From IMG/VR virus record IMGVR_UViG_3300047322_000465, positions 1 to 54,635 of that record: 54,635 nt of DNA; one strand, 5' to 3'. The DNA comes from a virus. Shown piece after piece: positions 2,691 through 22,591 of this stretch. The notes under the pieces were generated by a model. It made no database searches. It was given only the letters and a program-made list of their open reading frames with translations, and was not told where the DNA came from. Within the stretch, counting starts at the first letter, position 1, and every line of letters begins with the position of its first letter. A program made the position numbers and the translations under genes.

Positions 2691-2728
2691 CTATGGATCT
2701 CAATCTAGTAATCTGCGGGGCTTTTCCC

Positions 2729-3022: not shown

Positions 3023-3059
3023 GGGGCAGACCTGGAGCACGACGTGAGAGGTGATCATC

Positions 3060-4757: not shown

Positions 4758-5329
4758 ACAAGATGCCGACAATCTATCTGCGCGACGAAGAGAACAGGCG
4801 GTATGTGACTAACCAGGTCAACCCGGACGCCGCATGGGTGTTCGCCGGTGAGGGGGTCCCGTCCAGGAAGTATGACGGGACCTGTGTTCGCTTCGCCGGC
4901 TATGGCCAGTGGTACGCGCGCCGTGAGGTCAAGCCCGGGAAGCTGGCGCCGCCGAATTTCCGTCTGATCTCCCATGACGAGGTGACCGGCAAGACGATGG
5001 GCTGGGAGCCCATCGAACAGTCCGCGTTCGCGCAGATCTTCGCTGGAGTCGTGGGCAATCGACCGCTCTACGTCCCCGGCCAGACGTACGAGCTGGTCGG
5101 CCCGAAGATCAATGGGAACCCGGAGAAGCTGACCCATCACATCCTGATTGCTCACGGGTACATGTCGCTACCCGACGCCACTGAGCTGGAGTCACTCACC
5201 CCGATCACGTACCCGAGGATCGAGGCGTGGCTGAATGCTCATACCCACTGGGAGGGCATCGTATTCCGTCACGCCGATGGGCGAATGGCGAAGATCAAGG
5301 GGCGCGACTTCCGAGGGACGGCCCGCTGA
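4754..5329 (+). CDS. RNA ligase of the nucleotidyltransferase superfamily
   Basis: This 191-residue protein carries the ligase motif I KYDG at residues 39-42 (Lys39 would be adenylated), an EGIVFR motif IV near residue 170 and a KIKGRDF motif V near 180. That order and the length fit small RNA ligases that seal nicks in RNA, as in tRNA repair after anticodon-nuclease attack. The GTG start at 4754 is preferred because it overlaps the upstream stop (GTGA) and has GAGAGGA 8 bases upstream; an ATG at 4727 is an alternative. The same phage has a tRNA locus at 45143-45420, which fits a repair role. Confidence 0.85.
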   Translation: MNKMPTIYLRDEENRRYVTNQVNPDAAWVFAGEGVPSRKYDGTCVRFAGYGQWYARREVKPGKLAPPNFRLISHDEVTGKTMGWEPIEQSAFAQIFAGVVGNRPLYVPGQTYELVGPKINGNPEKLTHHILIAHGYMSLPDATELESLTPITYPRIEAWLNAHTHWEGIVFRHADGRMAKIKGRDFRGTAR

Positions 5330-5655
5330 TGGCGATCTGCCTGCTGTGCCCGGCGGACGACAACGAGGTACCCGACGCGATGCTCGAAGAGCACGGCAAG
5401 ATCATGCACTTCGAGCAGATCACGGGGATGGCCGAGGCCGGGCGCAGGGCGCTGATCCAGGCCCATCAGGTGCTCCGCGCGCACGTCGCGCAGTACCGGG
5501 CCGGCGATGACTACCAGGAGGCCGCCGCGCGCTTCGAGGCCAAGCCGCTGGACGGGACCCGGATCTACAAATACGGGGTGGAGAAGTCGTTCGCGGATGG
5601 CATGGCCGCCGCCGCGCACATCCTGGAGCACCTGATCGCGGGGGATGGGCTGTGA
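5329..5655 (+). CDS. Small protein with an N-terminal C2H2-type finger
   Basis: This 108-residue protein opens with CLLC near residue 4 and HGKIMH near residue 22, a spacing that fits a C2H2 zinc finger. The remainder is mostly helical, with many Ala, Glu and His residues (AQYRAGDDYQEAAARFE). The ATG overlaps the RNA ligase stop. It probably binds nucleic acid or protein, but no specific family is recognised. Confidence 0.75.
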   Translation: MAICLLCPADDNEVPDAMLEEHGKIMHFEQITGMAEAGRRALIQAHQVLRAHVAQYRAGDDYQEAAARFEAKPLDGTRIYKYGVEKSFADGMAAAAHILEHLIAGDGL

Positions 5656-5960
5656 GCAACTCAAACAGAGTCCGGGAGATCACCGCGCTGGCCGTTGCGG
5701 CGGGAGTGGAGTCGTGGAAAGAGCGCGCGGCGTCGGAGATCTCGGCGCCACCGGAGGCGCATGTGGCCGCCCTTGTGGAGGCCGTGTTCATCGTTTCGTG
5801 GGACTTGATCGAGGAGTGGCACCGCGAACGTCTGCTGGAGCAGCTCGCCACCGCATGGCGCGGCTGGGTCGAGGAGTGCGAGGGGCGTCCGCAGAATGAA
5901 CGGGGCCGAGACATGAGCGACTGGGAATGGGCCGTGAAGATCGTTCGGGAGTCGAAGTGA
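5652..5960 (+). CDS. Hypothetical helical protein
   Basis: This 102-residue, mostly helical protein starts at a GTG overlapping the previous stop. It is rich in Trp, Glu and Ala (SWDLIEEWHRERLLEQLATA). A TGA/GTG overlap couples it to the next gene. No motif or family is recognised. It sits in the gene string leading into the terminase. Confidence 0.65.
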   Translation: MSNSNRVREITALAVAAGVESWKERAASEISAPPEAHVAALVEAVFIVSWDLIEEWHRERLLEQLATAWRGWVEECEGRPQNERGRDMSDWEWAVKIVRESK

Positions 5961-6253
5961 CCAGCATCCAGGACGTGAAGTCGGCTGCCGCGCAGTACGC
6001 CGCCATCGCCGCGCGACACATTGATCTCGACGTGATCGCGGCTGAGTTCCCGGACCCCCGGGACGTGGCCGCGATCCACCTGGCCATTCTCAGCGCGAAT
6101 ATGCACCTAGAATGGAACGATCCGCCCATCAGTCGGAAGGTGCGGGTCATCGCGATCATGGGCTCCCCGATCCTCCTGCTCGGGCTGGTCACCGTCTGGG
6201 TAGGCTGGAAAGTGCGGGCCCGGGTCGACCGGCTGACGAGGGGAAAGGGCTGA
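5957..6253 (+). CDS. Small single-span membrane protein
   Basis: This 98-residue protein has a soluble N-terminal helical region and one membrane span near residues 66-86 (IMGSPILLLGLVTVWVGW), ending in a basic tail (KVRARVDRLTRGKG). The charge pattern predicts the C-terminus in the cytoplasm. The GTG start overlaps the previous stop. The function is unknown. Confidence 0.68.
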   Translation: MTSIQDVKSAAAQYAAIAARHIDLDVIAAEFPDPRDVAAIHLAILSANMHLEWNDPPISRKVRVIAIMGSPILLLGLVTVWVGWKVRARVDRLTRGKG

Positions 6254-6255
6254 TC

Positions 6256-6795
6256 ATGGGTAAACCAACTCCAGATCGAACCAACATCCCCCGAGGCGGT
6301 AACGGGAAGTACACCGCGCGTTACGACAGCGCTGAGCGGGACGCGCAGGCCGCGCAGATGCGCGTCGAGAGCAAGACGTACCAGCAGATCGCGGACGCCC
6401 TCGGGTACGCGGACAAGGGCGAGGCGCACCACGCCGTCGAGCGGGCGCTGAAGGCCGTGGTGCGCGAGCCGGCCGAGGCGCTGCGCAAGCTGATGCACGC
6501 CCGGCTGGACGAGATGCGGGTCGTGGTCCGGGAGGTCATGCTGGGCACCCACTACGCGCACAGCGCTGGCCGGCTGATCTTCACGCCCACCGGCGACGAT
6601 GGCGCGTCCGTGCCGCTGGTGGACAAGGGGCCGAACCTCGCCGCCGTCGGACAGTACCTGAAGATCGAGGAACGCGCCGCGAAGCTGGACGGCGTGGACG
6701 CGGCGGTGAAGGTTCAGACCCTCTCGCTGGAGGAGATTCAGGTGCAGATCGCGACCCTGGAGGCCGAGGCGGCGGACGCTGAGGACCGGCGATGA
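6256..6795 (+). CDS. Terminase small subunit-like DNA-binding protein
   Basis: This 179-residue protein sits directly before the terminase large subunit. A helix-turn-helix is visible near residues 38-58 (KTYQQIADALGYADKGEAHH), followed by a long helical region that could support oligomerisation. Small terminase subunits bind the packaging site and hand DNA to the motor. The ATG has GGGAAAGG upstream. Assignment rests on position and the HTH; sequence similarity of these subunits is usually weak. Confidence 0.72.
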   Translation: MGKPTPDRTNIPRGGNGKYTARYDSAERDAQAAQMRVESKTYQQIADALGYADKGEAHHAVERALKAVVREPAEALRKLMHARLDEMRVVVREVMLGTHYAHSAGRLIFTPTGDDGASVPLVDKGPNLAAVGQYLKIEERAAKLDGVDAAVKVQTLSLEEIQVQIATLEAEAADAEDRR

Positions 6796-6805
6796 AGATC
6801 TCCCC

Positions 6806-8332
6806 ATGACCGACCCCGTCACGATGCTCGACCACCTGCGCCGCCTGGAGCAGCTTCACCTGATGAAGCGCAACCGGGCGGCGCAGATCGCTATGCGCTA
6901 CCGGGACGACCCGGCCGGCTGGGCGCGGGACTGCATCCGCTGGCCGCCCGGCGGCGGCCTGGCCGACTACCAGGAGGAGGGGCTCACCGCGCTGGTCGAG
7001 CACAAGCGCGTCACCGAGCGCGGACCGCACGGCCTCGGGAAGACCACCAGTATGGCCGTGGCCGTGCTCTGGTTCGCCACCACCCGGGACGCGCTGGAGA
7101 TCGACTGGAAGGTGATCACCACCGCCAGCGTCTGGCGGCAGCTTTCCGTCTTCCTGTGGCCCGAGATCCGCAAGTGGGCGCGGCGCATCCGCTGGGACGT
7201 GATCGGGCGCGCGCCGTTCAACGAGCGCACGGAGCTGCTCGACCTGAACCTGAAGCTGAAGCACGGCGCGGCCACGGCGGTCGCGAGCAACGATCCGGCC
7301 CGGATCGAGGGCGCACACGGGGACGAGATCCTCTACGTGCTGGACGAGGCGAAGATCATTCCCCCGGGCACCTGGGACGCGATCGAGGGCGCGTTGTCCA
7401 ACGCCGGTCCCGACACCGAGTTCAACGCCTACGTGCTCGCGATGAGCACCCCGGGTACGCCGGCCGGGCGGTTCTACGACATCCACCGCCGCGCGCCGGG
7501 CTACGAGGACTGGCACACCATCCACGTCACGCTGGCGCGCGCGGTGGCCGCCGGGCGCATCTCGCAGGCGTGGGCCGACCAGCGCATGAAGCAGTGGGGC
7601 GCCGGCAGCGCGCTGTACCAGGGGCGCGTGCTCGGCAACTTCCACGCCGACGACGAAGACTCCGTCATCCCGCTGGCCTGGATCGAGGCCGCGCAGGAAC
7701 GCTGGCATGCGTGGGACGCCGCCGGGTGTCCGGTGATGCCTGGCCCGAGCTGGACCGGGGTGGACTGCGCGCGCGGCGGCGACGAGTCCATTCTCGCCGC
7801 ACTGCGCGGGCCGGTGGTACAGCTCCGCGCGCCAGTGGTTGGCCGGGACACGATGAAGATCGTGACGGCAGCCGAGGCCGAGGGCTGCCGCGCGATCGTG
7901 GACGTGGTCGGCGTCGGCGCCGGGGTGTTCGACCGGATGCGGGAGAAGAAGCTCCGCCCGGTGGCGTACACCGGCTCGGGCAAGTCGTATCTGCGCGACC
8001 GCTCGAAGGAGTTCGGCTTCACCAACGTGCGGAGCGCGGCGTACTGGCGAGTGCGCGAGCTGCTGGACCCGAACTTCGAGCCGACCCTGTGTCTGCCGCC
8101 GGATGACCTGCTCGTCTCCGACCTCACCGTTCCGCGCTGGGAGATCGCGGTCGGGATGCCGCCGCGCATCAAGGTGGAGACGAAGGAGTCGGTGGTGGAG
8201 CGCTTGAAGCGCTCGCCGGACCGGGGCGATGCGGTGGTGATGGCGATCTACGCGGACGCGGTGCGCTCACCTGCGGAGTTCTTCGAGCCCGAGGGGCACA
8301 TGCCCATCACGGGGCTCTCCCCGCTCGCGTGA
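6806..8332 (+). CDS. terL: Terminase large subunit (DNA packaging ATPase and nuclease)
   Basis: This 508-residue protein is the packaging motor. The ATPase half carries Walker A GPHGLGKTT near residue 73 and Walker B ILYVLDEAK near 175. The nuclease half has acidic motifs in GVDCARGGDES near 317, IVDVVGVGAG near 365 and GDAVVMAIYAD near 473, as expected for the RNase H-like terminase nuclease. The length is normal. The type of DNA end it makes is not deducible; the terminal repeat fits headful packaging or assembly overlap. Confidence 0.93.
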   Translation: MTDPVTMLDHLRRLEQLHLMKRNRAAQIAMRYRDDPAGWARDCIRWPPGGGLADYQEEGLTALVEHKRVTERGPHGLGKTTSMAVAVLWFATTRDALEIDWKVITTASVWRQLSVFLWPEIRKWARRIRWDVIGRAPFNERTELLDLNLKLKHGAATAVASNDPARIEGAHGDEILYVLDEAKIIPPGTWDAIEGALSNAGPDTEFNAYVLAMSTPGTPAGRFYDIHRRAPGYEDWHTIHVTLARAVAAGRISQAWADQRMKQWGAGSALYQGRVLGNFHADDEDSVIPLAWIEAAQERWHAWDAAGCPVMPGPSWTGVDCARGGDESILAALRGPVVQLRAPVVGRDTMKIVTAAEAEGCRAIVDVVGVGAGVFDRMREKKLRPVAYTGSGKSYLRDRSKEFGFTNVRSAAYWRVRELLDPNFEPTLCLPPDDLLVSDLTVPRWEIAVGMPPRIKVETKESVVERLKRSPDRGDAVVMAIYADAVRSPAEFFEPEGHMPITGLSPLA

Positions 8333-8375
8333 CGTCGGCGCGTACCGTGGCCAGGAAGAACGGAGAGGAGAACGT

Positions 8376-9179
8376 ATGTCCTGGTACCCGGAGCTTCCCC
8401 ACGATCAGGCCGGTGGCCACGGCGGCGCGCGCGCGCAGACGCAAATGGTCGTGATCCACTGCACGGACAACACGGCGAGCGCCGAGGCCGAGGCGCACTA
8501 CGCGGAGCATCGCGCCGACGGGATCTCAGCGCATTTCTACAGCGACGATGACTCCATCATCCAGGCGCTCGATACCGCCGTGGTGGCCTACGGCTGTTTC
8601 GCCACCGGGAACGCGCGCTCGGTCCAGTTCGAGCTGACCGGCCTGTCGAACCAGGTGAGCGACGCCGCGATGCGGCAGGCCGCCAAGACGGTGCGGCGCG
8701 TGTGCGTCGAGTTCGGCATTCCGGTGCGGCACGTCGGCCCCGCCGAGCTGCGTGCCGGACAGAAGGGCATCTGTGGCCACGGGGACGTGACGCGCGCCTG
8801 GGGTGAGGGCGACCATACCGACCCCGGGGACAGCTTCCCATGGGCGACATTCATCGGATACGTACAGAATGGGGACGAAATGACTGCGGACTGGGCAGCG
8901 GTGACCGCGATCCAGATCGGCTCGACCGATCTGGGGTACCAGGATCTGACCGCGCCCGCATGGGCGCGCGGCTACGGCACGTACAACCTGCGCGACATCG
9001 AGGCGCGGACGAAGGACCGGATCGATAAGGCCGTGCTGGCGATCAAGGCCAGCCAGCAGGCGCCGGCCCCGCCGACCGATGCGCAGATGGAGGCGCTCGC
9101 GCAGCGGGTGGCCGCGATCATCGGCGGCTCCATCGCGGCGCAGGTCGGTGACCTGATCGCGGCCAGGATGAAGGAATGA
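8376..9179 (+). CDS. Endolysin: N-acetylmuramoyl-L-alanine amidase
   Basis: This 267-residue protein has an Amidase_2/PGRP-type domain in residues 1-160. His28 (MVVIHCTDNT) and His/Asp residues in GHGDV near 134 and DHTDPGDSFPW near 147 are the expected zinc ligands. It would cut the bond between muramic acid and the peptide stem of peptidoglycan. The C-terminal 100 residues are helical (ALAQRVAAIIGGSIAAQVG) and may target the wall or mediate oligomers; no known wall-binding repeat is visible. No signal peptide is seen, so export depends on the following holin-like proteins. GAGAGGAG precedes the ATG. Confidence 0.9.
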   Translation: MSWYPELPHDQAGGHGGARAQTQMVVIHCTDNTASAEAEAHYAEHRADGISAHFYSDDDSIIQALDTAVVAYGCFATGNARSVQFELTGLSNQVSDAAMRQAAKTVRRVCVEFGIPVRHVGPAELRAGQKGICGHGDVTRAWGEGDHTDPGDSFPWATFIGYVQNGDEMTADWAAVTAIQIGSTDLGYQDLTAPAWARGYGTYNLRDIEARTKDRIDKAVLAIKASQQAPAPPTDAQMEALAQRVAAIIGGSIAAQVGDLIAARMKE

Positions 9180-9436
9180 CCACGGTCCCGGAACCCGGGG
9201 TCATCATCACCTTGACCAGCATCTACGCGAAGCTGGTCAAGGTGGAGAAAGATCTGGCGCGGGTGGCGTCGGACATCAGGAACGTGCGCAGCACGCAGCA
9301 CGAGGTGGACACCGACCACGAGACGCGACTTCGTGGCCTGGAGGCGAGCCGGATGCCCTGGAAGGTCATCGGGGGCTTCGTCGGGGTCGGCGCCCTGTTG
9401 GCCACGATCGTGGGAATGTTGATCAAGCAGAACTGA
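9176..9436 (+). CDS. Holin-like protein with coiled coil and C-terminal span
   Basis: This 86-residue protein starts at an ATG overlapping the endolysin stop. A charged helix (residues 20-55, KLVKVEKDLARVASDIRNV) precedes one C-terminal span (IGGFVGVGALLATIVGML), a layout like XhlA-type lysis proteins. It probably works with the next protein to permeabilise the membrane. The role is inferred from position and topology. Confidence 0.75.
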   Translation: MTTVPEPGVIITLTSIYAKLVKVEKDLARVASDIRNVRSTQHEVDTDHETRLRGLEASRMPWKVIGGFVGVGALLATIVGMLIKQN

Positions 9437-9447
9437 GAGGAAAGATC

Positions 9448-9675
9448 ATGAAGCGCAACCCCGTCCTGCTCGTCATGTCCATCTTCGCCGGCCTCCAGGC
9501 GCTGAGCGGCGGCGCATTCCTCCTGGACGTGTTCGGCGCGAAGACCGCCGGCCTGGTCGTGCTGGCGCTCGCCGCTGTCCAGGCCGGCGTGCAGTACTGG
9601 GTGCGCGGTCAGGTCACCCCGCTGGCCGACCCGCGCGACAACCTCGGCCGGCCGATGCGCACGGGGTCGATGTAG
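9448..9675 (+). CDS. Two-span holin-like protein
   Basis: This 75-residue protein has two hydrophobic segments (VLLVMSIFAGLQALSGGAFLL near the N-terminus and AGLVVLALAAVQAGVQYWV) and a polar C-terminal tail. Together with the endolysin and the gene at 9176 it forms the lysis cassette. AGAGGAAAG is upstream, and a bidirectional terminator follows at 9723-9753. Confidence 0.75.
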   Translation: MKRNPVLLVMSIFAGLQALSGGAFLLDVFGAKTAGLVVLALAAVQAGVQYWVRGQVTPLADPRDNLGRPMRTGSM

Positions 9676-9722
9676 CCTGAGCGCGTCGAGCGAGCCGACC
9701 GCAGGAGACGCACGCGAGAACG

Positions 9723-9753
9723 GAAGCCCCCGGGACCTGCGCTCGGGGGCTTC
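9723..9753. terminator. Bidirectional terminator after lysis genes
   Basis: GAAGCCCCCG (9723-9732) pairs with CGGGGGCTTC (9744-9753) around an 11-base loop. It closes the lysis operon on + and coincides with the stop of the convergent RHH gene on -. Confidence 0.75.
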
Positions 9754-9925
9754 ATGCTGCCTGCGGCCGGTACTCGCCACGCTCGGCGGCGGCCTTCAGT
9801 GCCGCCCGGAGGAGTACCTCCGCCGAGCGCGCGGCGGAGCGTCCGGTTTGCCTGCCGTGCTCCGCCACCTCTGCCATGAGTTCCGGGGGGAGTCGCCACC
9901 CCGCTACCGAGCGCCTGGTCTTCAT
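9752..9925 (-). CDS. Small ribbon-helix-helix regulator
   Basis: This 57-residue protein reads like a single RHH unit: basic start MKTRRSVAGWRLPPELMAEV, then a turn and a second helix with SAARSAEVLLRAALKAA. The start at 9925 lacks a ribosome binding site. A GTG at 9955 extends it by 10 residues and would lie inside the inverted repeat at 9942-9970. It is the only - strand gene between the lysis and transfer blocks. The adjacent 12-bp inverted repeat sits in the rightward promoter of the transfer block, so this is the likely repressor of that block and perhaps of itself. The RHH assignment is moderate and the target is inferred. Confidence 0.72.
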   Translation of the reverse strand: MKTRRSVAGWRLPPELMAEVAEHGRQTGRSAARSAEVLLRAALKAAAERGEYRPQAA

Positions 9926-9941
9926 GCGCGGGAGGATACAG

Positions 9942-9970
9942 CCTCTGGCTTGCACTACGCAAGCCAGAGG
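9942..9970. promoter_or_regulatory. 12-bp perfect inverted repeat, likely operator
   Basis: CCTCTGGCTTGC (9942-9953) is the reverse complement of 9959-9970, with a 5-base spacer. It overlaps the -35 and spacer of the rightward promoter at 9950-9978 and the 5' end of the - strand RHH gene, a typical position for a self-regulating operator. Confidence 0.7.
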
Positions 9971-9978
9971 GGTAGCGT
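9950..9978 (+). promoter_or_regulatory. Promoter for the transfer-like block
   Basis: TTGCAC (9950-9955) and TAGCGT (9973-9978) are separated by 17 bases. The promoter reads towards the gene at 10066 through an 80-base leader with a CTCCGGAG hairpin (9995-10026). Confidence 0.6.
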
Positions 9979-9994
9979 TCTGGTGAACAGAAAA

Positions 9995-10026
9995 GCTCCG
10001 GAGCGTGGTGACACACCCTCCGGAGC
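9995..10026 (+). promoter_or_regulatory. Leader hairpin formed by two CTCCGGAG palindromes
   Basis: GCTCCGGAG (9995-10003) can pair with CTCCGGAGC (10018-10026) around a 14-base loop in the leader of the 10066 gene. It could attenuate transcription, stabilise the RNA, or belong to the CTCCGGAG site cluster at 9996-10536. Confidence 0.45.
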
Positions 10027-10536
10027 CGGCGGAACCAGAACCCTCTCTCGAAGGGAACCAGAGCCATGATCAACTCTAATCGGAAGACGGACGTTCCGGC
10101 AAGCGGAGGGCGAAAGCTCTGCTCCGTCGGTGACGCGTCACTGGTCTCCATGCTCCGGAGGGAGGCGGAGGCGGTCGGAGTTGACTGGCGCTCCGATCCT
10201 CTGGGACCCTCCGTCATCCAGAGGGCTTCTGACCTGCTGTTTCCCAGCTCCAGCAAGTGCGGGGAGTCGCGCGCTTACCGGATTCAGAGCCTCGTGCAGA
10301 GCCTGCCGGAGGAACTTCCGGAGGACCTGAACGCCGCTCCGGAGGTTCAGGAGAATGACCGGAGCCCGGAGCCTCCGGCGGAGGACACCGCTGCTCCGGA
10401 GCCGGAGGATGACCGGAGCCCGGAGGGTGGCGAGCCGGAGGAGTGGGGCGGCGTGGCCGGAGCATCGGGGGCCGCCCGGTTCCGGAGGTTCTGGCGGCGA
10501 GACTCCAGCCGGAGCGCGGAGGGCATCGCTCCGGAG
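9996..10536. repeat. Cluster of six CTCCGGAG palindromes and a 17-bp direct repeat
   Basis: CTCCGGAG starts at 9996, 10018, 10153, 10337, 10394 and 10529. The 17-bp sequence ATGACCGGAGCCCGGAG occurs at 10355-10371 and 10409-10425. The palindrome recurs at least once elsewhere (28133), but the density here is far above chance even at this GC. Codon choice for Pro-Glu explains part of it, but not the two copies in the leader. Short repeated octamers are what TraB translocases read in streptomycete clt loci. Confidence 0.65.
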
Positions 10537-11025
10537 GTCGATGACGAATCCTCCGGGCGACCGGAGCGCGCGTGGCCCATCCTTCTGATCGCGGCCTCCG
10601 CCTTCTGCGCGCTCTGGGCCGGCTGGGTGGGGCTCGGGAAGATGACCGGGTTCGGCGCGGTGGTCCCGCTGCCCGGCATCGTGAACTGGACGGCGGATGC
10701 CTCCATCACGCTGCCGCTCGGCGTGGAGGCGCTCGCGGGGTACGCCATCCGCGCCTGGCTGTCCGGTTACGGAACGCCGTCCACGCGCCGGCTGGCGCGG
10801 CGTACCGCCATCGGGTGCCTGATCCTCGGCGCGGTCGGGCAGGCCGCATATCACCTGATGAAGGTGGCAGAGGTCGGCGCGGACGGCGCCCCGTGGCAGG
10901 TCACCACGCTGGTGTCGATCATCCCGGTGGCCTCGATCGGCATGGCCTCAGCTCTCCAGCACCGCCTCGCGATGGACCGCCGCGCGCACAAGGCGCGCCT
11001 ACGGAAGGCCGCGCAGAACGTTTGA
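10066..11025 (+). CDS. DUF2637/SpdB-like membrane protein with Pro-Glu linker
   Basis: This 319-residue protein has a soluble N-terminal part (1-85), a Pro-Glu-rich linker (about 90-135, PEPPAEDTAAPEPEDDRSPE) and a C-terminal domain of four probable spans from about 167 to 305. The spans and motifs (AYHLMKVAEVG; TLVSIIPVASIGMASALQH) resemble DUF2637 proteins, which accompany FtsK/TraB genes in streptomycete plasmids and integrative elements, where Spd proteins help plasmid spread along the mycelium. It is the first gene after the promoter at 9950. The linker is encoded by repeated CCGGAG hexamers. DUF2637 assignment is by pattern, not by search. Confidence 0.7.
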   Translation: MINSNRKTDVPASGGRKLCSVGDASLVSMLRREAEAVGVDWRSDPLGPSVIQRASDLLFPSSSKCGESRAYRIQSLVQSLPEELPEDLNAAPEVQENDRSPEPPAEDTAAPEPEDDRSPEGGEPEEWGGVAGASGAARFRRFWRRDSSRSAEGIAPEVDDESSGRPERAWPILLIAASAFCALWAGWVGLGKMTGFGAVVPLPGIVNWTADASITLPLGVEALAGYAIRAWLSGYGTPSTRRLARRTAIGCLILGAVGQAAYHLMKVAEVGADGAPWQVTTLVSIIPVASIGMASALQHRLAMDRRAHKARLRKAAQNV

Positions 11026-11049
11026 CGTATTCGTTATTCGTGGTAAAGT
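11022..11049 (+). promoter_or_regulatory. TTGACGTAT-class promoter
   Basis: TTGACG (11022-11027), a 16-base spacer and TAAAGT (11044-11049) precede the gene at 11080. The spacer TATTCGTTATTCGTGG closely matches that of the - strand promoter at 43528-43555 (TATGCGCTATCCGTGA), suggesting a shared regulator. Confidence 0.7.
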
Positions 11050-11079
11050 GAGGGCTTCGCCGACCGGAGGAGATAGATG

Positions 11080-11685
11080 ATGTTGACGACCGAACAGCGT
11101 GAGGTGATCGAAAGGACGGCACGCCAGCAGACCCCGGTTGCCGCCGACGCCATCCGTCAGGCCGTGCTGGACCTAGACGAGGCACTGATGGAGGTCGACG
11201 ACGCGAAGGACGAGAGGAACGACCTGGCGAGAAAGTGTGCGAGCCTGAAGCACCAGCGGGACACCACCGTGCGCCAGCGCGACTACCTCCAGGAGAAGAT
11301 CACCAGCCTGGACGCGCACGTGAACGGCCTCGTGGCGCTCGGCGCCCGACGCACCGTCGAGGAGATGCCGGCCCTCTCCCACTACTGCTACTACGTGTCC
11401 TACCGGCACGAGACGGCGGCGGAGGACAGCGGCCACGTGACGCTCGAACCGCCCGTCAAGGGCTGGGGCCACATCGAGATCGTGCTCAACCGACCGATCC
11501 GTAGCTTCGAGGACGTTCGCGTGCTGGCCGGGTTCATCCAGCGGAAGAACGAATTCGGCACGGTGGCCATCCACTCCTGGCAGTTCATGGAGGACTGGAG
11601 CAGCGAGGCGCCGACGTATCAGGAGCACATCGCGGCGGACGGCACCGTGACCCCGGCGCCGGTGAGCCTGAGCCTCCTCACGTAG
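11080..11685 (+). CDS. Hypothetical protein with N-terminal coiled coil
   Basis: This 201-residue protein has a helical, probably coiled-coil N-terminal half (residues 5-85, KDERNDLARKCASLKHQRD) and a beta-rich C-terminal half (SHYCYYVSYRHETAAEDSGH; GWGHIEIVLNRPIRSFED). GGAGGAG at 11066-11072 gives the better spacing to the ATG at 11080 than to 11077. It has its own promoter and terminator, so it is a single-gene unit inside the transfer-like block. No family is recognised. Confidence 0.72.
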   Translation: MLTTEQREVIERTARQQTPVAADAIRQAVLDLDEALMEVDDAKDERNDLARKCASLKHQRDTTVRQRDYLQEKITSLDAHVNGLVALGARRTVEEMPALSHYCYYVSYRHETAAEDSGHVTLEPPVKGWGHIEIVLNRPIRSFEDVRVLAGFIQRKNEFGTVAIHSWQFMEDWSSEAPTYQEHIAADGTVTPAPVSLSLLT

Positions 11686-11687
11686 AA

Positions 11688-11722
11688 CAGCGCGCGCCGG
11701 GCAAGGGCGCGCGCTGCATTTC
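11688..11722 (+). terminator. Terminator after the 11080 gene
   Basis: An 11-bp perfect stem (CAGCGCGCGCC at 11688-11698 with 11706-11716) and 7-base loop are followed by CATTTCCC. Confidence 0.65.
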
Positions 11723-11755
11723 CCGATTCCCGAGCAGAGAAGAGAGGCTTTCATC

Positions 11756-11935
11756 ATGGCACGGAAGCAGGCCCCCGCGATGTTCTGGGCGTGGATGCTG
11801 GTTGCGTTCCTCGACCTGATCGTGACCGCATGGGCGCTCGGCCGAGGTAGCGACTCCGGCGCGATAATCGCGACCGGCGGCGGCGCCTTTAGCCTGCTGG
11901 CGGCCAGCATCACGTGGCGCCGGGGCCGAAAGTGA
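11756..11935 (+). CDS. 59-residue two-span membrane protein
   Basis: This small protein has two membrane spans (AMFWAWMLVAFLDLIVTAWA and AIIATGGGAFSLLAASITW) and ends RRGRK, placing both ends in the cytoplasm. GAGAGG precedes the ATG. Its stop overlaps the next GTG, so it is the first gene of a coupled membrane-protein series. Size and context resemble small Spd-type spread proteins of streptomycete plasmids, but no specific match is claimed. Confidence 0.7.
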   Translation: MARKQAPAMFWAWMLVAFLDLIVTAWALGRGSDSGAIIATGGGAFSLLAASITWRRGRK

Positions 11936-12366
11936 CTACGCTGAGTGACTCGGAAGTCGGAACTTCCGAGTTCGAAGGTGCCTCAGCCGAGCGCGAAACG
12001 GGGGCTGGGGCCACTTCGGAAGTCACACAGCGTGAGATTCTGCGCAGTGTGGCCCGGTACCTCACGCCGCCGGACATCCTGCGTGGCGCGCCGGACAGCC
12101 TGCCGAAGATGCGCGAGTACGCGCACCGGGGGGAGCAGGTCGCCAAGCGCGGCACGCTCCGCGCGCTCGGCATCGGCTACTTCCGCGCGGTGGCGCGCCC
12201 GGCGGCCGTCGTGTGCCGCTCCGTCGAGTGGATCGCGGTGCGTCCCGGGCGCGCGCTCACCGTCTTCGCGACCTGGAAGCTGGTCATCACGACCGGCCCT
12301 GGGCCGTGGATCGTGCACCACATCATCGACCCGGCCCTGCGTCTCGCGGGCTGGATCTTCCTATAG
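11932..12366 (+). CDS. Membrane-associated protein of the transfer-like block
   Basis: This 144-residue protein starts at a GTG overlapping the previous stop. A polar N-terminal third rich in Ser, Glu and Thr is followed by a basic helical region and one or two hydrophobic segments (ALTVFATWKLVITTGPGPWI; IIDPALRLAGWIFL). The first 100 bases hold three copies of CGGAAGT or its complement, including a 9-bp inverted repeat (11949-11970). The function is unknown; position suggests a Spd-like role. Confidence 0.65.
   Translation: MTTLSDSEVGTSEFEGASAERETGAGATSEVTQREILRSVARYLTPPDILRGAPDSLPKMREYAHRGEQVAKRGTLRALGIGYFRAVARPAAVVCRSVEWIAVRPGRALTVFATWKLVITTGPGPWIVHHIIDPALRLAGWIFL
11949..11970. repeat. 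9-bp inverted repeat at the start of a gene
   Basis: CTCGGAAGT (11949-11957) and ACTTCCGAG (11962-11970) form a hairpin with a 4-base loop inside the 11932 coding region. A third CGGAAGT lies at 12017-12023. It could act on translation or bind a protein. Confidence 0.7.
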
Positions 12367-12374
12367 GAGGAGAT

Positions 12375-12872
12375 ATGTCAAAGAGCGCAAAAGCGCGCAT
12401 TAAGGGGGTCGCCGTTCCGATCATGGCGTGGACCTCGTTCGGGTGCGCCTTCCTTGCCGGGGCCTTCGCCCCGGGCATGTGGATCGGACATTGGATAGCG
12501 GCTGGGGTGAAAATGCTGAGCTGGTTCGTGCTGGTGATTTTCTTCAGCCTGCTCGCCTGGACCATCCGCGATCTGGCGATGGACGGTGAGCCCAACAAGA
12601 TCGCGGTGTACTCCGTGATCGTGCTGCCCAGCCTGGCCGGTTCGACCCCGGGCGGCGTCGGCCAGTGGGTGGCTGACCGCTCCCACGACGCGCTGACGTG
12701 GGCGTCCCAGCCGCTGCACGACGCGATGGGCAAGGCGGCGGTCGGCAAGGGGGCGCCCACCGTGATGACCCTGGTCCTGCTCGGCGTGGCTATCGCCTTC
12801 GCTCAGCGCACCGTGAAGAGCGGCACGCTCTTCGGCAAGGGCAAGCGCGGCGCGATCGTGGAGGAGGTCTGA
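12375..12872 (+). CDS. Multi-span membrane protein (SpdB-like)
   Basis: This 165-residue protein has a short basic N-terminus and about four hydrophobic segments (GCAFLAGAFAPGMWIGHWIA; LSWFVLVIFFSLLAWTI; YSVIVLPSLAGSTPGGVG; TVMTLVLLGVAIAFAQ). AGGAGGAG precedes the ATG. It lies between other small membrane proteins and upstream of the FtsK/TraB-like ATPase, the layout of spd genes in streptomycete plasmids. SpdB proteins are thought to form pores or bind the septal wall. Assignment is by topology and context. Confidence 0.62.
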   Translation: MSKSAKARIKGVAVPIMAWTSFGCAFLAGAFAPGMWIGHWIAAGVKMLSWFVLVIFFSLLAWTIRDLAMDGEPNKIAVYSVIVLPSLAGSTPGGVGQWVADRSHDALTWASQPLHDAMGKAAVGKGAPTVMTLVLLGVAIAFAQRTVKSGTLFGKGKRGAIVEEV

Positions 12873-12873
12873 C

Positions 12874-13620
12874 ATGGAGATTTTCCTGGTCGCCTACGCG
12901 ATCTACTGGCTGGTCACGAACGCCGCCGTGGACCTGAAGCACGCCGCGCGCGGCACCACCTCGCCGCGCTGGCAGATGAAGCTGGAGAAGCTGCGCCAGC
13001 GCGGGCTTCCCGGATACAAGCCACACGCGTTGACCCCCGCGTGGTTCGCCGACCTCTGGCTCGACGCGCGCCGCGCCAAGCAGGCGAAGGCCGCCGAGCT
13101 GCTGGAGCGCGAGCGCAGTGCCGAGAAGCGTCTCGCCGAGCACGTTGATGAGGCGCTCGACGTGGCCCGGCCGACGCCGGCCGCTCCGCCCGCCGTCGGC
13201 GGCGTGCCGGCCGATGGGCGGTTCCATCGTCCCGGGGGTGGCGTACCAGCCGACGGCCGGTTCCACCGGCCCGGCGCGGCACCCCCTGAGGGCAAGGTCG
13301 TTCAAATGTTCCCGAAGAAGAATGGAAGTACTGGAATGTCCGAAGTTACCGGTCTCGATCCCGCCATCGCCCACGCGCGCGCCGTGGCCGAGGTGCACGC
13401 GCTGCACGCCGCCGAGGAGACGTTCATCAACGGCCTGGTGACCGCCGGTCACGGTGCGACGGTCAACGACCTGGCGCGTCACGCTCTCGTGAAGAGCCAG
13501 GAGGCCGCCGAAGCCTGGGAGGCGCTCGCGTCCGGGTTGGAAACGAACAAGGGCGTCCAGGCTGCATACGCGGAGAACCCCGAGGCCGCCGGCAAGGATC
13601 ACCTGCTCGGCGGTCGCTGA
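12874..13620 (+). CDS. Membrane-anchored protein with duplicated GGVPADGRFHRPG
   Basis: This 248-residue protein starts one base after the previous stop. Residues 2-20 (EIFLVAYAIYWLVTNAAVD) are an N-terminal membrane anchor. A charged helix follows (residues 65-100), then two exact copies of GGVPADGRFHRPG (residues 109-121 and 122-134), a Pro/Gly linker and a helical C-terminal domain (AAEETFINGLVTAGHGATVN). The repeat copies differ at eight third-codon positions, so the peptide is under selection. It is probably a cytoplasmic adaptor of the transfer-like complex; no family is recognised. Confidence 0.7.
   Translation: MEIFLVAYAIYWLVTNAAVDLKHAARGTTSPRWQMKLEKLRQRGLPGYKPHALTPAWFADLWLDARRAKQAKAAELLERERSAEKRLAEHVDEALDVARPTPAAPPAVGGVPADGRFHRPGGGVPADGRFHRPGAAPPEGKVVQMFPKKNGSTGMSEVTGLDPAIAHARAVAEVHALHAAEETFINGLVTAGHGATVNDLARHALVKSQEAAEAWEALASGLETNKGVQAAYAENPEAAGKDHLLGGR
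13198..13275 (+). repeat. 39-bp in-frame tandem duplication
   Basis: Two 39-bp units (13198-13236 and 13237-13275) encode the same 13 residues but differ only at synonymous third positions. Confidence 0.9.
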
Positions 13621-13682
13621 CCGATCGACCACGGCATGGCGCCCGGGTTCACGTCCGGGCGCGGTGCTGGCCGATCGGTCAG
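13617..13682. repeat. Nested inverted repeat before the TraB-like gene
   Basis: The outer arms CTGACCGATCG (13617-13627) and CGATCGGTCAG (13672-13682) enclose inner arms GCGCCCGG (13639-13646) and CCGGGCGC (13655-13662). All pairings are perfect. It overlaps the previous stop codon and has no T-run. It may be a terminator, an mRNA structure, or a cis-acting transfer or resolution site. Confidence 0.75.
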
Positions 13683-13696
13683 CGAGAGGAGAGGTC

Positions 13697-13831
13697 ATGA
13701 GGGGCTTTTGCTCCATCTGCGGTAAATCTATCTCTATCATCAGGTCCGGGGTAATTCGCTCTCACGGCGGTGGATGGCTGATGACGTGCGAGGGCAGCGG
13801 CAAGCCGCCGAAGGAGGTCACGACGTCATGA
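13697..13831 (+). CDS. 44-residue zinc-ribbon-like protein
   Basis: This short protein begins MRGFCSICGKSISI: a CxxC pair at residues 5-8, a His near 23 and a Cys near 31 could bind zinc. GAGAGGAGAGG precedes the ATG. Its stop overlaps the ATG of the TraB-like gene (ATGA), so the two are translationally coupled. It may be a small regulator or accessory factor of the translocase. Confidence 0.65.
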   Translation: MRGFCSICGKSISIIRSGVIRSHGGGWLMTCEGSGKPPKEVTTS

Positions 13832-15747
13832 TCAAGCAGACCCACAGCTTCGCTGCGCAGGTCGCGCCCCACGCTGCTGTGGGTCTGCTGGTCGTGGCCG
13901 CCGCCGCCACCCACGCCGCCGCCAGCGCGAGCGGCCACGAGATGCAGGTCGCACTGTGGGTAGCCGGTACCGCCTTCGTGCTCGCCGTGCTGGTCGGCAT
14001 GAAGCGCGGCGCGCGGATCGAGTGCCGCAAGGCGCGCGCCCGGCTTCAGCTTCTCCTGGTCGGCTCGGCGGCGTGGCTCGGCGCGGTGACCGGTGCCGGC
14101 CTGTCCTGGGGTGCGGTCGAGATCCTCGTGCTGATGGTCGGCGCGCTCTCGCTGCACTGGTGGCGGATGAAGCGCATCCCGAACCGCGCGGCGGCCGTCG
14201 CCGAGCCGGTAGGCGACTACGCCGCGCGCTGGCGCGAGTCCATCGGTTGCCCCGGGGGCGCGGCGCCCGGCTCGCGGCTCGTGAAGCCCGAGACGATCGA
14301 GTCGGGCGTGCGCTTCGACCTCCGTCTCGTCCCCGGCAAGCAGGACGCGAGCACGATCACCGGGGCCATGGAGAAGATCCGGGGCGGCCTCGGGCTGTTC
14401 GGGGATCAGGAGCTGCTGATCGAGCCGCACCCCACGCTGCCGGAGCCGCACCAGATCGCGACCGTGGTCACGAAGTCGCCCATCCGTGCCGAGATCCTGT
14501 GGCCCGGCCCGAGCACTTTCGACAGCGCGACCGGCACGGTGGCGCTCGGCCCGTTCGCCGACGGTATCGGTGTCGGTCGCTGGCGGGTATACAGCAAGTC
14601 CCGGCTCTACGGTGGCTACCTTCAGGGCGGCACCGACTCGGGCAAGTCGCGGACCGCAGATTCGATCATGGTGTCCATCGCCGCGAGCCGGACGCACCCC
14701 ACCGTCGTGCAGTACGCGGACGGTCAGGGCGGCGCGTCCTCGGCCATGCTCTCGAAGTACGCCGATCGGGTGGCGAAGAACCCGGCGGAGTGCCTGTCGA
14801 TGCTTCAGGACGCCGTCAAGGTCATGGAGATGCGGCAGGACGAGAACGACCTGGAGGGCTGGATCGGCTTCACGCCGCGCATCGACCGGCCTGGCCTGCT
14901 GATCATGATTGACGAGTGCCACCTCCTGCTGGTCTTCCCCGAGATCCAGGAAGCCGTGGCCGCCATCGCCAAGGGCGGGGGCAAGGTGGGTGTGGCGTGC
15001 GTGCTGGCCAGCCAGACCCCGCTTCTGAGCGCGTTCGGCGGTTCCGGGAAGAACAACTTCGCTGACGACATCCGGTCGAACCTGCTCATGGGCAACGGCC
15101 TCGTGCTGCGCTCGAAGTCCAAGGACGTGAGCCAGGTGTTCGGGGTATCGGTCAACCCAAGCGCCTTCCCGGCCACCCCGGGATATGCCTACCTCGTGGA
15201 CTCCATCGGGCGCAGCGCGCCGCTGCGCTCGTACCACTTCACCGACCAGCAGGCGGCGGCCTACCTTCCCGGCAGCGAGTGGCTGGAGCTGGACGCGGGC
15301 GCGGCGAATGCTGCCGGGCCGACCTACCTCAACCGACGTGCGATCCGCGACCGCGCCGCCGCTGCCAAGCGCGAGCGGGTCGAGGCGCTGAAGGCCGGGC
15401 GCCCGCTGCCGAAGGCCGCACCCGCGACCGCGCTGGCCGCGCCGCTCCCGGCAGTGACCGCCTTCCCGGTATGGGTCTCGCCGCCGAGGCCGGTTTCCCC
15501 CATCGCGCCGGCCGGCCCCCGGGTAACCGACATCCATCACCGCGCCACCGAAGCGCTGGCCGGCGGCGCGGTGCGTGCCGGCTTCACGATGCCCGGGTGG
15601 ATGGCGCGCGAGCTGGGATGCTCCGAGCGCTGGGCGCACGAGACGCTGAAGGACCTCGTGGCGCTCGGCGTGCTGGAGCGGCCGGACGGCACGCCCCAGG
15701 GGCGGTACTACCCCACCGGAAAGACTCTTTCGAGAAAGGTCGCCTGA
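13828..15747 (+). CDS. FtsK/SpoIIIE-family DNA translocase, TraB-like
   Basis: This 639-residue protein has two or three N-terminal membrane spans (about residues 12-35, 38-57 and 75-100), a RecA-like motor with Walker A GGTDSGKSR near 267-275 and Walker B LLIMIDECH near 356, a sensor-like ACVLASQTP segment near 390, and a C-terminal winged-helix-like domain (MARELGCSERWAHETLKDL) near 590-615. The order membrane-motor-winged helix is that of FtsK and of TraB, which moves double-stranded plasmid DNA between mycelial cells by reading short repeats. The surrounding small membrane genes favour TraB. A role in segregation or DNA positioning is the alternative. AAGGAGG lies about 10 bases upstream. 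Confidence 0.85.
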   Translation: MIKQTHSFAAQVAPHAAVGLLVVAAAATHAAASASGHEMQVALWVAGTAFVLAVLVGMKRGARIECRKARARLQLLLVGSAAWLGAVTGAGLSWGAVEILVLMVGALSLHWWRMKRIPNRAAAVAEPVGDYAARWRESIGCPGGAAPGSRLVKPETIESGVRFDLRLVPGKQDASTITGAMEKIRGGLGLFGDQELLIEPHPTLPEPHQIATVVTKSPIRAEILWPGPSTFDSATGTVALGPFADGIGVGRWRVYSKSRLYGGYLQGGTDSGKSRTADSIMVSIAASRTHPTVVQYADGQGGASSAMLSKYADRVAKNPAECLSMLQDAVKVMEMRQDENDLEGWIGFTPRIDRPGLLIMIDECHLLLVFPEIQEAVAAIAKGGGKVGVACVLASQTPLLSAFGGSGKNNFADDIRSNLLMGNGLVLRSKSKDVSQVFGVSVNPSAFPATPGYAYLVDSIGRSAPLRSYHFTDQQAAAYLPGSEWLELDAGAANAAGPTYLNRRAIRDRAAAAKRERVEALKAGRPLPKAAPATALAAPLPAVTAFPVWVSPPRPVSPIAPAGPRVTDIHHRATEALAGGAVRAGFTMPGWMARELGCSERWAHETLKDLVALGVLERPDGTPQGRYYPTGKTLSRKVA

Positions 15748-16205
15748 TGAAAGCGCCCCGCCACCTTCCCGACGTCGCGCACGCGCGCCCCGGACGTACC
15801 GCCGTCTACCGGTTCTACGACCGGCGCGGCGTGCTGCTCTACGTCGGAATCACCAACTCGCCGAGGCACCGTTTCGAGCAGCACGCCGCCGACAAGGAAT
15901 GGTGGCCGGCGGTGACGGGGCGGACCATCGAGTGGTGTGCGAGTCGCCGCGCCGCGCTGGAAGCGGAGTGGTTCGCGATCAAGAATGAGCGCCCGATCCA
16001 CAACAGGCAGCACAACGATCACTACCGGGGAGGCAGCTACGTCCCGGCACGCGGCATCGCGCGGCCGGCGTTCACGATGGTCGTCAGCGGAGTTCTGCTC
16101 GGCGCGGCGTGGACAGGGCACCTGGAGCTGAGCTGGATCATGCAGGCGGTCTGCGTGCTCGCATTCCTGGCCTCCTCCCAGTTGATACTGAGCCGCGCGG
16201 AGTAG
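15747..16205 (+). CDS. GIY-YIG nuclease fused to membrane spans
   Basis: This 152-residue protein starts at an ATG overlapping the TraB-like stop. Residues 18-90 fit a GIY-YIG nuclease: VYRFYD and LLYVGIT for the two core strands, RHRFEQH with the conserved Arg and His, and EAEWFAIKNERPIHN with the catalytic Glu and terminal Asn. Two hydrophobic segments follow (FTMVVSGVLLGAAWTGHL; IMQAVCVLAFLASSQLIL), which is unusual for this nuclease family. Membrane placement next to the translocase suggests DNA processing at the membrane or cutting of incoming DNA. It ends the transfer-like block. Confidence 0.8.
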   Translation: MKAPRHLPDVAHARPGRTAVYRFYDRRGVLLYVGITNSPRHRFEQHAADKEWWPAVTGRTIEWCASRRAALEAEWFAIKNERPIHNRQHNDHYRGGSYVPARGIARPAFTMVVSGVLLGAAWTGHLELSWIMQAVCVLAFLASSQLILSRAE

Positions 16206-16298: not shown

Positions 16299-16607
16299 AT
16301 GCCTGTCACGCCGCTTGTCCTGCTGATATACGCGCTGGCCGTCGCGCGCCTGACCGGCCTGATCGTAGAAGACGACATTCTGAGCATTCCACGCGACGCG
16401 CTGCTCGGGTGGCTCGATCCGACCCCGAAGAGCATCGGTTCGCACCTCGCGACGCTGATCACGTGCTACTGGTGCATGAGCATCTGGGTTGCCGCTGTGG
16501 TCGCCCCGCTCATGTGGTGGCACGGCATGAATCCGTACATCCTCCTGCCGGCCGTAGTGCTGGCGTTCGCGCAGGTCACCGGCATGATTTCCCAGAACGG
16601 CAGGTAG
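16299..16607 (+). CDS. DUF1360-like membrane protein
   Basis: This 102-residue protein has hydrophobic segments at the N-terminus (TPLVLLIYALAVARLTGLI), middle (WVAAVVAPLMWW) and C-terminus (YILLPAVVLAFAQVTGMI). VARLTGLIVEDDILSIPRD and CYWCMSIWVA match the pattern of DUF1360 proteins, often found near the portal gene in actinophages. The role is unknown; membrane attachment of packaging or early superinfection effects are possible. No ribosome binding site is evident, which fits the leaderless promoter. Confidence 0.75.
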   Translation: MPVTPLVLLIYALAVARLTGLIVEDDILSIPRDALLGWLDPTPKSIGSHLATLITCYWCMSIWVAAVVAPLMWWHGMNPYILLPAVVLAFAQVTGMISQNGR

Positions 16608-16612
16608 GTTTC

Positions 16613-18430
16613 ATGGCCCTTCGGCGCGCGCGTGAACCCGAGAAGGTCAAGGCGATGGTAGCGGCCACCGCCACGGTGCCGCTCGGCGCCGCGTCGGCCT
16701 GGTCAACCTGGAGGTACGGAAACCGCGACTGGCAGATCGAGGCGTGGCGCCTGTATGACATCGTTGGCGAGCTGCGGTTCCTCGCCGGCTGGATCGGCGA
16801 CTCGGTCAGCCAGGCGCGCCTCTACGTCACCGAGATCAACGAGAACGGCGAGGAGTCCGGCGAGGTCGAGGACGGGGAGATCGCGCGCCTGGCCGCCGTC
16901 CCGCTCGGCTCCGGCTCCCAGCGGGACGACAATCTGAGGCTGATGGGCATCGGGCTGGCCGTGTGCGGTGAGACCTGGATCATCGGGGAGGGCGGCGCGA
17001 CCGACGACCCGGAGAACTGGTTCGTCGTCTCGCCCGGCCAGCTCCGGCGTACCGGGTCGGAGATCACCGTCAAGCGCCCCATGCAGGTGGGCGGCGGCAT
17101 CCTCACGCTCCAGGACGGCGTGGACCTCCTCGTTCGGGCGTGGCGTCCGCATCCGAACTGGATCGAACAGGCCGACTCGCCCACGCGCGCCGCGATCCCG
17201 CCACTCCGCGAGATCGAGCTGCTGACGAAGCGCGAGTTCGCCGAGCTGGAGAGCCGGCTCACGGGCGCGGGAGTCTGGTTCCTGCCGGAGGGGATCGACT
17301 TCCCGCACGGCGAGGGCGACCCGGAGGGCGCGTCAGGTTTCATGGCGATGCTCCAGCGGGTCGCCGCGATGAACATCCAGGACCAGTCCCGCGCGTCCGC
17401 CATGGTGCCCATCATGGCGACCGTGCCGGATCACCTTGTCGAGCACATCCCGAACATGAAGCCGGTCACCTTCTGGTCGGACCTGTCCGATCAGATCATC
17501 CCGCTGAAGGACAAGGCGATCACGCGCCTGGGGTCCACCTTCGAGATCCCGCTGGAGCTGTCAACGGGGCTCGGCCAGTCCAACCACTGGACGGCGTGGG
17601 CGATCGGCGAGGAGGGCATCAAGCGGATCAAGCCCTACCTGGCCACCATCGCGGACGCGCTCACCCGGGGCTTCCTGGGGCCGGCGCTGGAGCGTGCCGG
17701 GCTGGACCCGGAGCGGTACGCCTTCGCCTTCGACGTGGCACCGCTGGCCGTCCGGCCGAACCGGCTTACCGAGGCGCTGGAGCTGTCCGACCGGTACATG
17801 CTGACCGACGAGGAGACCGTCAAGTCCGGCGCCTTCACGAAGAACCAGATGCCGGACGACGCCGAGCGCCTGAGGATGCTGGTCTTCCGCGCCGTGGCGA
17901 AGGACCCCACCCTACTCTCTGACCCCGGAGTACGCGCGGCGATCGGCATCGGCGGTACGGCACCGGCCGCCGTACCGGCACTGCCAGCGCCCGCTGAACC
18001 GACCGCGCCCGCGCCGGACAACTCCCCGCCCGCCGAGCCCGCCACGTCGCCGCCGGATACTGGCCAGCCGGGGCCACACTCGGTCAGCGCGCTCAGCGCC
18101 GCGAGCCGGCTCATGGTGCTCCGGGCGCTGGAGCTGGCCGGCGGCCGGCTCACCACACCAGCCGAGCGCCGGGGACGATGGGCGTCCATCGCGCGCCACG
18201 ACCTGCACGGGCGCGTCGGTCCGATCACCCCGGATAAGGCCGACCGGGTGCTCGAAGGCGCGTGGACTCACGTCGAGTCCGTGGCCGAGGCGGTCGGCAT
18301 GGAGACGGCGGAGCTTCAGCGCATCCTGCACGCGTACTGCGTCGAGCTGCTCACCCGGGGCATGACGCATCACGACGACCTGCTCACCAGCACGATGGGG
18401 TTGTCTCGCGACGTTCGGATGCTGCGGTGA
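16613..18430 (+). CDS. Portal protein
   Basis: This 605-residue protein, just upstream of a MuF-like gene and the capsid protease, is the portal: the 12-subunit ring through which DNA enters and leaves the head. WRYGNRDWQIEAWRLYDIVG near residues 34-53 and FLAGWIGDSVSQARLYVTE are typical of actinophage portals. A low-complexity Pro/Ala linker (about residues 445-485) precedes a C-terminal helical region. ATG at 16613 with CAGGTAGG upstream. Confidence 0.88.
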   Translation: MALRRAREPEKVKAMVAATATVPLGAASAWSTWRYGNRDWQIEAWRLYDIVGELRFLAGWIGDSVSQARLYVTEINENGEESGEVEDGEIARLAAVPLGSGSQRDDNLRLMGIGLAVCGETWIIGEGGATDDPENWFVVSPGQLRRTGSEITVKRPMQVGGGILTLQDGVDLLVRAWRPHPNWIEQADSPTRAAIPPLREIELLTKREFAELESRLTGAGVWFLPEGIDFPHGEGDPEGASGFMAMLQRVAAMNIQDQSRASAMVPIMATVPDHLVEHIPNMKPVTFWSDLSDQIIPLKDKAITRLGSTFEIPLELSTGLGQSNHWTAWAIGEEGIKRIKPYLATIADALTRGFLGPALERAGLDPERYAFAFDVAPLAVRPNRLTEALELSDRYMLTDEETVKSGAFTKNQMPDDAERLRMLVFRAVAKDPTLLSDPGVRAAIGIGGTAPAAVPALPAPAEPTAPAPDNSPPAEPATSPPDTGQPGPHSVSALSAASRLMVLRALELAGGRLTTPAERRGRWASIARHDLHGRVGPITPDKADRVLEGAWTHVESVAEAVGMETAELQRILHAYCVELLTRGMTHHDDLLTSTMGLSRDVRMLR

Positions 18431-20954: not shown

Positions 20955-21095
20955 ATGTGCCAGTGCGGATCGAAGCGGGAACGGTGGGAGGTCACCCTGT
21001 CCACCGGGATGAAGATCGTCAAGTCGTCGGAGGTGCAGGCGCGCAGCTTCGCGGCGCGCCACCCGGGGGCCACGTTCCGGAAGCTGGAGAAGTAG
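20955..21095 (+). CDS. 46-residue protein with N-terminal CxC
   Basis: This small protein starts two bases after the protease stop. It begins MCQCGSKRERWEVTL and then has a short beta/alpha pattern ending HPGATFRKLEK. Short CxCG proteins near capsid genes are common in actinophages; their role is unknown. GGGAGTCTGAGC lies upstream of the ATG. Confidence 0.7.
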   Translation: MCQCGSKRERWEVTLSTGMKIVKSSEVQARSFAARHPGATFRKLEK

Positions 21096-21097
21096 GG

Positions 21098-22024: not shown

Positions 22025-22025
22025 T

Positions 22026-22589: not shown

Positions 22590-22591
22590 GT

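Follow-up and report, generated by a model that had tools for sequence, protein, structure and literature searches.

Why would a tailed phage carry, between its lysis and structural genes, a block of genes that looks like the DNA transfer apparatus of a mycelial plasmid? In filamentous soil actinobacteria, plasmids pump double-stranded DNA between compartments by means of such gene sets. The question was raised by the virus record IMGVR_UViG_3300047322_000465 of IMG/VR, the complete 54,635 bp of which (G+C content 68%) were analyzed here and are called the window below. The initial annotation, made from the sequence alone, had described in it a membrane-bound FtsK/TraB-like ATPase accompanied by a DUF2637/SpdB-like protein, several small membrane proteins, and a GIY-YIG nuclease, and had interpreted them as a plasmid-style transfer block. 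The positions of the genes, their plus-strand orientation, and their placement between lysis and structural genes were as described, and the gene order is kept in three related phage contigs (L002, L003, and L035). Phylogenetic trees, synteny, and profile comparison point firmly to kinship of the block with the transfer blocks of actinomycete plasmids, and its interpretation as plasmid-style was upheld. We consider that the block is probably a TraB/Spd-like module that would move phage DNA between hyphal compartments.

Structure and Phylogenetic Position of the ATPase

The ATPase has the architecture required of Streptomyces TraB: N-terminal membrane spans (within the first 130 residues by hydropathy), a motor core with Walker A (GGTDSGKS, residue 267) and Walker B (LLIMIDE, residue 357) motifs, and a C-terminal winged-helix region (helices 564–612 plus a strand, predicted local distance difference test score (pLDDT) ~78), which was conserved in the alignment. 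Membrane location, Walker motifs, and winged helix had been noted initially. Membrane spans of this and the other block proteins are hydropathy predictions only. An HMM search against FtsK families had been proposed as a check; the ATPase scored 18.3 bits (E = 0.0017) with Pfam FtsK_SpoIIIE, under the curated cut-off of 24 bits, and a phmmer search against PDB gave no useful match. Foldseek with the AlphaFold model retrieved the conjugation coupling protein TcpA of pCW3 (6.5e-10) and the FtsK motor (2e-8). Membership of the ATPase in the FtsK/HerA DNA translocase superfamily is based on the Walker motifs, the tree, and this fold search, and not on the Pfam profile.

Relatives of the ATPase were found by tblastn in plasmids of Saccharothrix, Amycolatopsis, Pseudonocardia, Kitasatospora, Streptomyces, and Nocardiopsis, while the same search gave no match among sequenced phages. 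A profile-guided search added two unrelated viral contigs encoding the ATPase, L036 (108 kb, from an isolate genome) and L037 (65 kb). In maximum-likelihood trees, the ATPases of the window, L002, L003, L035, L036, L037, and three plasmids formed one clade (support of 98/96 and 96/99 in two trees), separate from chromosomal FtsK (100/100), classical TraB, and the pair of phage P1312 and pZL12. Grouping with chromosomal FtsK had been named as the outcome that would speak against a transfer block; when the phage ATPases were constrained to this position, the topology was rejected by the approximately unbiased (AU) test (p = 0.00037).

The clade also leaves out TraB of pIJ101 and the rows of actinomycete integrative and conjugative elements (AICE), with the deep placement of long branches in the trees being unsure. 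Classical Streptomyces TraB proteins (pIJ101, pSVH1, AICE TraB) share with the window ATPase a membrane-anchored FtsK-type motor and a C-terminal winged helix, but their sequence similarity is marginal (3e-4 between pIJ101 TraB and the L003 protein) and they lie outside its clade. The ATPase is a sister type, not a classical pIJ101-type TraB. The L037 ATPase paired with that of the Saccharothrix plasmid in one tree (91/95), the second tree leaving the pairing open, which suggests that exchange of the ATPase between phages and plasmids may have occurred more than once. Comparison with L002 (dN 0.013, dS 0.167, dN/dS ~0.08) indicates purifying selection on the ATPase. Matches to it were present in 23 of 297 Actinomycetes genomes; at the five loci inspected the identity was 26–36% and none of the phage proteins tested was encoded nearby, and one of these loci, with a Prim-Pol gene in its vicinity, may be an AICE.

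Comparison with Plasmid Transfer Blocks

Upstream of the ATPase gene, the plasmids of Amycolatopsis sp. FU40 and Saccharothrix sp. AJ9571 and the Pseudonocardia plasmid pBCI2-2 encode multi-span, small, one-span, three-span, and medium-sized proteins. Their blocks share with the window the winged-helix ATPase, the counterpart of the 150-aa protein, and a similar gene order, although in the Amycolatopsis plasmid the one-span and three-span genes are arranged differently. The plasmid one-span protein is homologous to the 150-aa protein (blastp 1e-4; hhalign 97.9%, E = 5e-13); the profile match of the medium-sized protein to the 248-aa protein was weak and covered only the C-terminal third (96.2%). 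The Amycolatopsis block has, as a further likeness, a DUF2637 protein (Pfam) at its head, and differs in encoding a GntR regulator where the window has a ribbon-helix-helix (RHH)-like one. The plasmid blocks also differ in that no GIY-YIG gene follows the ATPase gene and no phage genes were annotated in the stretches examined. In the window itself, the predicted small membrane proteins and the GIY-YIG nuclease with hydrophobic spans were found as first described; few of the block proteins were named directly by Pfam/NCBIfam, and the 202-aa coiled-coil-like protein had no family match in profile searches.

The assignment of the first protein of the block to DUF2637/SpdB was supported only indirectly. 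It shares 46–52% identity with proteins of Nocardia and Cellulosimicrobium plasmids and of Thermobifida phage P1312 and did not match Pfam DUF2637 (PF10935). The C-terminal domain of its L003 orthologue did match DUF2637, with 25.5 bits (cut-off 22.8), and it is solely through this orthologue that a DUF2637 identity of the window protein is suggested. Profile comparison with the DUF2637 protein of L037 gave 52% (E = 1.5e-4), and with a mixed Spd set only 2%. The N-terminal halves of the two orthologues (L003:5948–6904 and window 10066–11025) share 54% identity, whereas their C-terminal membrane domains differ, being of the DUF2637 type in L003 and of the plasmid/P1312 type in the window; the pair looks like a membrane-domain swap between close relatives.

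Conservation of the Block among Phages

A search for related phages with the same block, proposed at the outset, was successful: the complete block occurs in the same order and place in four phage contigs, the window, L002, L003, and L035. Identities of the block proteins to those of the window were mostly 87–99% in L002 (60% for one gene), 31–72% in L003, where open frames and order are kept, and 45–61% in L035. L036 (IMGVR_UViG_2934470325_000001, 108,622 bp), an otherwise unrelated phage, carries the ATPase–GIY-YIG unit together with a serine recombinase match and a second GIY-YIG gene (L061:15594–16154); its stretch did not match plasmids by megablast. In L037 (IMGVR_UViG_3300019889_000166, 4859–11332), a block with a DUF2637 protein (35.3 bits), the ATPase, and a GntR-like gene, the latter recognised by eye only, lies beside lysis and tail genes, and two tyrosine integrase matches were found. 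L036 and L037 each encode terminase, portal, and tape measure proteins. A tailed-phage lineage appears to carry the block as a lasting component.

That every related phage has the block was considered and dropped: phage phiAsp2 lacks it, and in G005, the capsid protein of which is 62% identical to that of the window, a Spd-like gene (41% over the full length) occupies the same place but is accompanied by a chromosomal-type FtsK. The chromosomal-type FtsK that replaces the plasmid-type ATPase at this locus of a related phage lies at L030:3645–5411 (contig IMGVR_UViG_3300010047_000005). Bacterial-genome relatives of the capsid protein (31–43%) had no block within the flanks examined.

Leader Region and a Candidate Cis-Acting Site

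The palindromic 8-mer CTCCGGAG occurs seven times in the genome, and six of the seven copies form the array listed in Table 1 (9996–10536). Seven copies were present in the corresponding region of L003, while L035 has there six copies of another 8-mer, CAGAGCGC; this difference fits co-divergence without proving it. The cluster score of CTCCGGAG was 13.5, against a maximum of 10.4 in 40 Markov and 40 synonymous-codon shuffles; a chance origin of the array, which was also considered, is unsupported, its score being above all 80 shuffles. Repeats of 8-bp motifs are recognised by classical TraB (PMC4170104), the winged helix serving for this recognition (PMC3583192), and for this reason, by analogy, the array is proposed as a candidate clt-like site. 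Alternatively, the array may be bound by the RHH-like protein, the divergent gene for which is kept in L003 (5631–5807, 58 aa).

Proposed Function and Alternative Explanations

In the mechanism that we propose, the ATPase would assemble at the membrane or septum via its N-terminal spans, recognise the 8-bp repeat array by its winged helix, and drive phage DNA in double-stranded form into the next compartment of the hypha or into another hypha in contact with it. Assistance would come from the Spd-like protein and the small membrane proteins, and repression of the block from the RHH-like protein acting at the palindrome. The genera of the plasmid relatives are mycelial, and spread through a mycelium is favored by the fact that the nearest cultured relative of the phage infects Actinoplanes. 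Transfer from an extrachromosomal prophage and transfer during lytic infection are about equally probable. A more specific version, in which a phage without recognisable lysogeny genes pushes its replicating genome, particle-free, through the septa of a filamentous host, is put forward tentatively, with the plasmid-derived translocase and the Spd-like proteins as the proposed machinery.

Several observations weigh against mycelial transfer. Plasmids also encode the Spd-like membrane domain at sites remote from any annotated FtsK gene, and phiAsp2 does without the block. The chromosomal-type FtsK at the block site of G005 means that the conserved trait may be general FtsK activity. The CTCCGGAG array, most of which falls within coding sequence of low complexity, may in part be due to repeats at the protein level. 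Finally, the AlphaFold model of the ATPase was poor overall (mean pLDDT 54), with ~65–84 in the core and winged helix.

FtsK-like translocases of other phages may act inside the infected cell, and the ATPase could likewise serve there in the clearing or segregation of host or phage DNA, as a packaging aid, or in the disturbance of division, its partners being membrane anchors. Mycobacteriophage Thibault (gp178) and its relatives have FtsK-like genes without a transfer block; the G005 locus and the position of the block between terminase/lysis and portal genes agree with such a role as well. We nevertheless regard it as unlikely, since those FtsK proteins and the window ATPase fall into separate groups (AU test above), the Spd-like and small membrane partners fit the plasmid layout, and a separate large terminase is encoded. 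An exclusion or competition module, in which DNA of phages or plasmids entering the cell is blocked or destroyed by the translocase together with the membrane proteins and the membrane GIY-YIG nuclease, would account for the GIY-YIG gene with a hydrophobic C-terminus, which directly follows the ATPase gene also in L003, L035, and L036. However, the plasmid relatives examined keep the remaining layout without this nuclease, and a motor with its own winged helix implies active DNA movement, which makes such a module quite improbable. Absence from phiAsp2 would also suit a decayed or neutral plasmid fragment, a functionless moron, but this can hardly be reconciled with the frames and order kept in L003 at the identities given above, the low dN/dS of the ATPase, and the conserved promoter region.

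Phage-Plasmid or Lytic Lifestyle

The initial annotation had proposed a phage-plasmid with a Prim-Pol replicase and no integrase. The replicase was confirmed by Pfam, neither the window nor any of the four relatives searched matched a tyrosine integrase or serine recombinase (PF00589, PF00239), and morphogenesis and lysis genes (large terminase (TerL), portal, capsid, tape measure, amidase) are present. Other expected marks of a phage-plasmid did not appear: ParA (PF13614) had no match in the same five, other partition types not being excluded; the genes scanned included no recognisable lysogeny repressor; and no host genome containing the phage was found. phiAsp2 likewise has no integrase or ParA match. 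An AT-rich iteron stretch just after the Prim-Pol gene is the probable replication origin; its iterons and inverted repeat are compatible with an origin of plasmid type, and lytic phages can have these too. A phage-plasmid lifestyle is thus possible, and these data agree equally well with a lytic use of the block. Spreading can itself serve plasmid stability (PMC4170104), and by analogy it could substitute for partition in the window phage.

The closest precedent is the Streptomyces plasmid-phage pZL12/phage ZL12 (GQ919031), in which, close to the large terminase gene, membrane proteins and an FtsK-type ATPase are encoded in a block with a divergent GntR gene. PMC3583192 reports pZL12 as transferable, and PMC7157519 singles it out among the temperate actinobacteriophages that replicate extrachromosomally, as the one exception to their membership in cluster A. 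Its ATPase forms its own clade with that of P1312 (99/99), ParA, ParB, and an integrase are encoded, and the RuvC-like 4086 protein was its sole match among the window proteins tested. The window, with no ParA or integrase match, represents another lineage with another ATPase clade. Thermobifida phage P1312 (KT021004) encodes, adjoining an FtsK gene, a Spd-like protein that shares its membrane domain with the window protein (~46%), but differs in its serine integrase, its ATPase of the pZL12 clade, and its other structural genes.

Genome Context

The first 126 bases of the window recur at 54503–54628, and since counterparts of the window end and start adjoin in two related contigs (G001 and G002), the contig is circular or circularly permuted, with an essentially complete genome of ~54.5 kb. 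The plus strand encodes a weak RHH-like gene, the Prim-Pol/AAA replicase, TerL, the amidase, and the transfer block, followed by a DUF1360 gene and genes for portal, a Mu-F-like protein, capsid, tape measure, and tail; a helicase, a PD-(D/E)XK-like nuclease, and numerous small genes are on the minus strand (Table 1). By capsid, the closest cultured phage is Actinoplanes phage phiAsp2 (60% over 77%), with morphogenesis genes of the Rosebush type; TerL (64%) and portal (57%) are also alike, whereas its holin–portal interval is filled by other genes.

Among other loci, an RNA ligase 1 (RLIG1) Pfam match (E = 2e-11, 4727–5326) was unexpected in this phage. Ahead of the capsid gene, the structural region encodes two glycosyltransferases and a methyltransferase (22026–22589) at 20957–23431, and a glucosyltransferase-like gene (41117–42058) follows the tail genes. 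Tandem repeats of ~255 bp (2–3 copies, 27183–27907) lie within a virion/fibre-like gene (26853–29534). By megablast of the first 25 kb, similarity to known phages was found only at 4524–4593 (RuvC-like resolvase of mycobacteriophages).

Table 1. Features of the transfer block, its leader, and flanking regions in the window.
Feature	Position	Strand	Remarks
Prim-Pol/AAA replicase	439–2643	+	Pfam 1.6e-38 and 3.3e-36
Non-coding inverted repeat (30-bp arms) with 2.9 copies of a 22-bp iteron	2714–2918		within AT-rich region 2643–3060
Large terminase	6806–8332	+	phrog_2 1.2e-33
Lysis amidase	8376–9179	+	flanks block on lysis side
Inverted repeat, 10-bp arms	9723–9753		terminator-like; between lysis genes and block
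RHH-like regulator, 57 aa	9752–9925	-	divergent; weak Pfam RHH_5 match, E = 0.03
Perfect palindrome, 12-bp arms	9942–9970		probable operator; L003 keeps the left arm and surroundings
Inverted repeat GCTCCGGAGCGTG/CACCCTCCGGAGC	9995–10026		in block leader; same in L003 5877–5908
Array of six CTCCGGAG 8-mers	9996–10536		candidate clt/TRS (TraB recognition sequence)-like cis site
Spd-like protein	10066–11025	+	charged N-terminus; C-terminal multi-span (~4) membrane domain
Coiled-coil-like protein, 202 aa	11077–11685	+	kept in L002, L003, L035
Small membrane protein, 59 aa	11756–11935	+	
Small membrane protein, 150 aa	11914–12366	+	homologue at same position in plasmid blocks
Membrane protein, ~165 aa, 3 spans	12375–12872	+	positional counterpart in plasmids; conserved in L003
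248-aa protein, one N-terminal span	12874–13620	+	homologues in L003, L035, L036, L037
Cysteine-containing protein, 55 aa	13664–13831	+	overlaps ATPase start; 96% in L002
FtsK/TraB-like membrane DNA translocase (ATPase)	13828–15747	+	C-terminal winged helix; start most likely at 13828
GIY-YIG nuclease	15747–16205	+	C-terminal hydrophobic spans; Pfam 5.3e-7, phrog_3312 1e-20
Portal	16577–18430	+	position approximate; phrog_776 2.5e-149; flanks block on structural side

Implications

Virus spread in multicellular bacteria is commonly seen as lysis followed by reinfection. A plasmid spreading module kept by a phage lineage suggests a second route, within the mycelium. Because transfer blocks of this type are common to plasmids and at least three phage groups (the window group with L036, L037, and pZL12/P1312), the boundary between phages and plasmids in actinomycetes seems to be more porous than pZL12, the sole known case, suggests.

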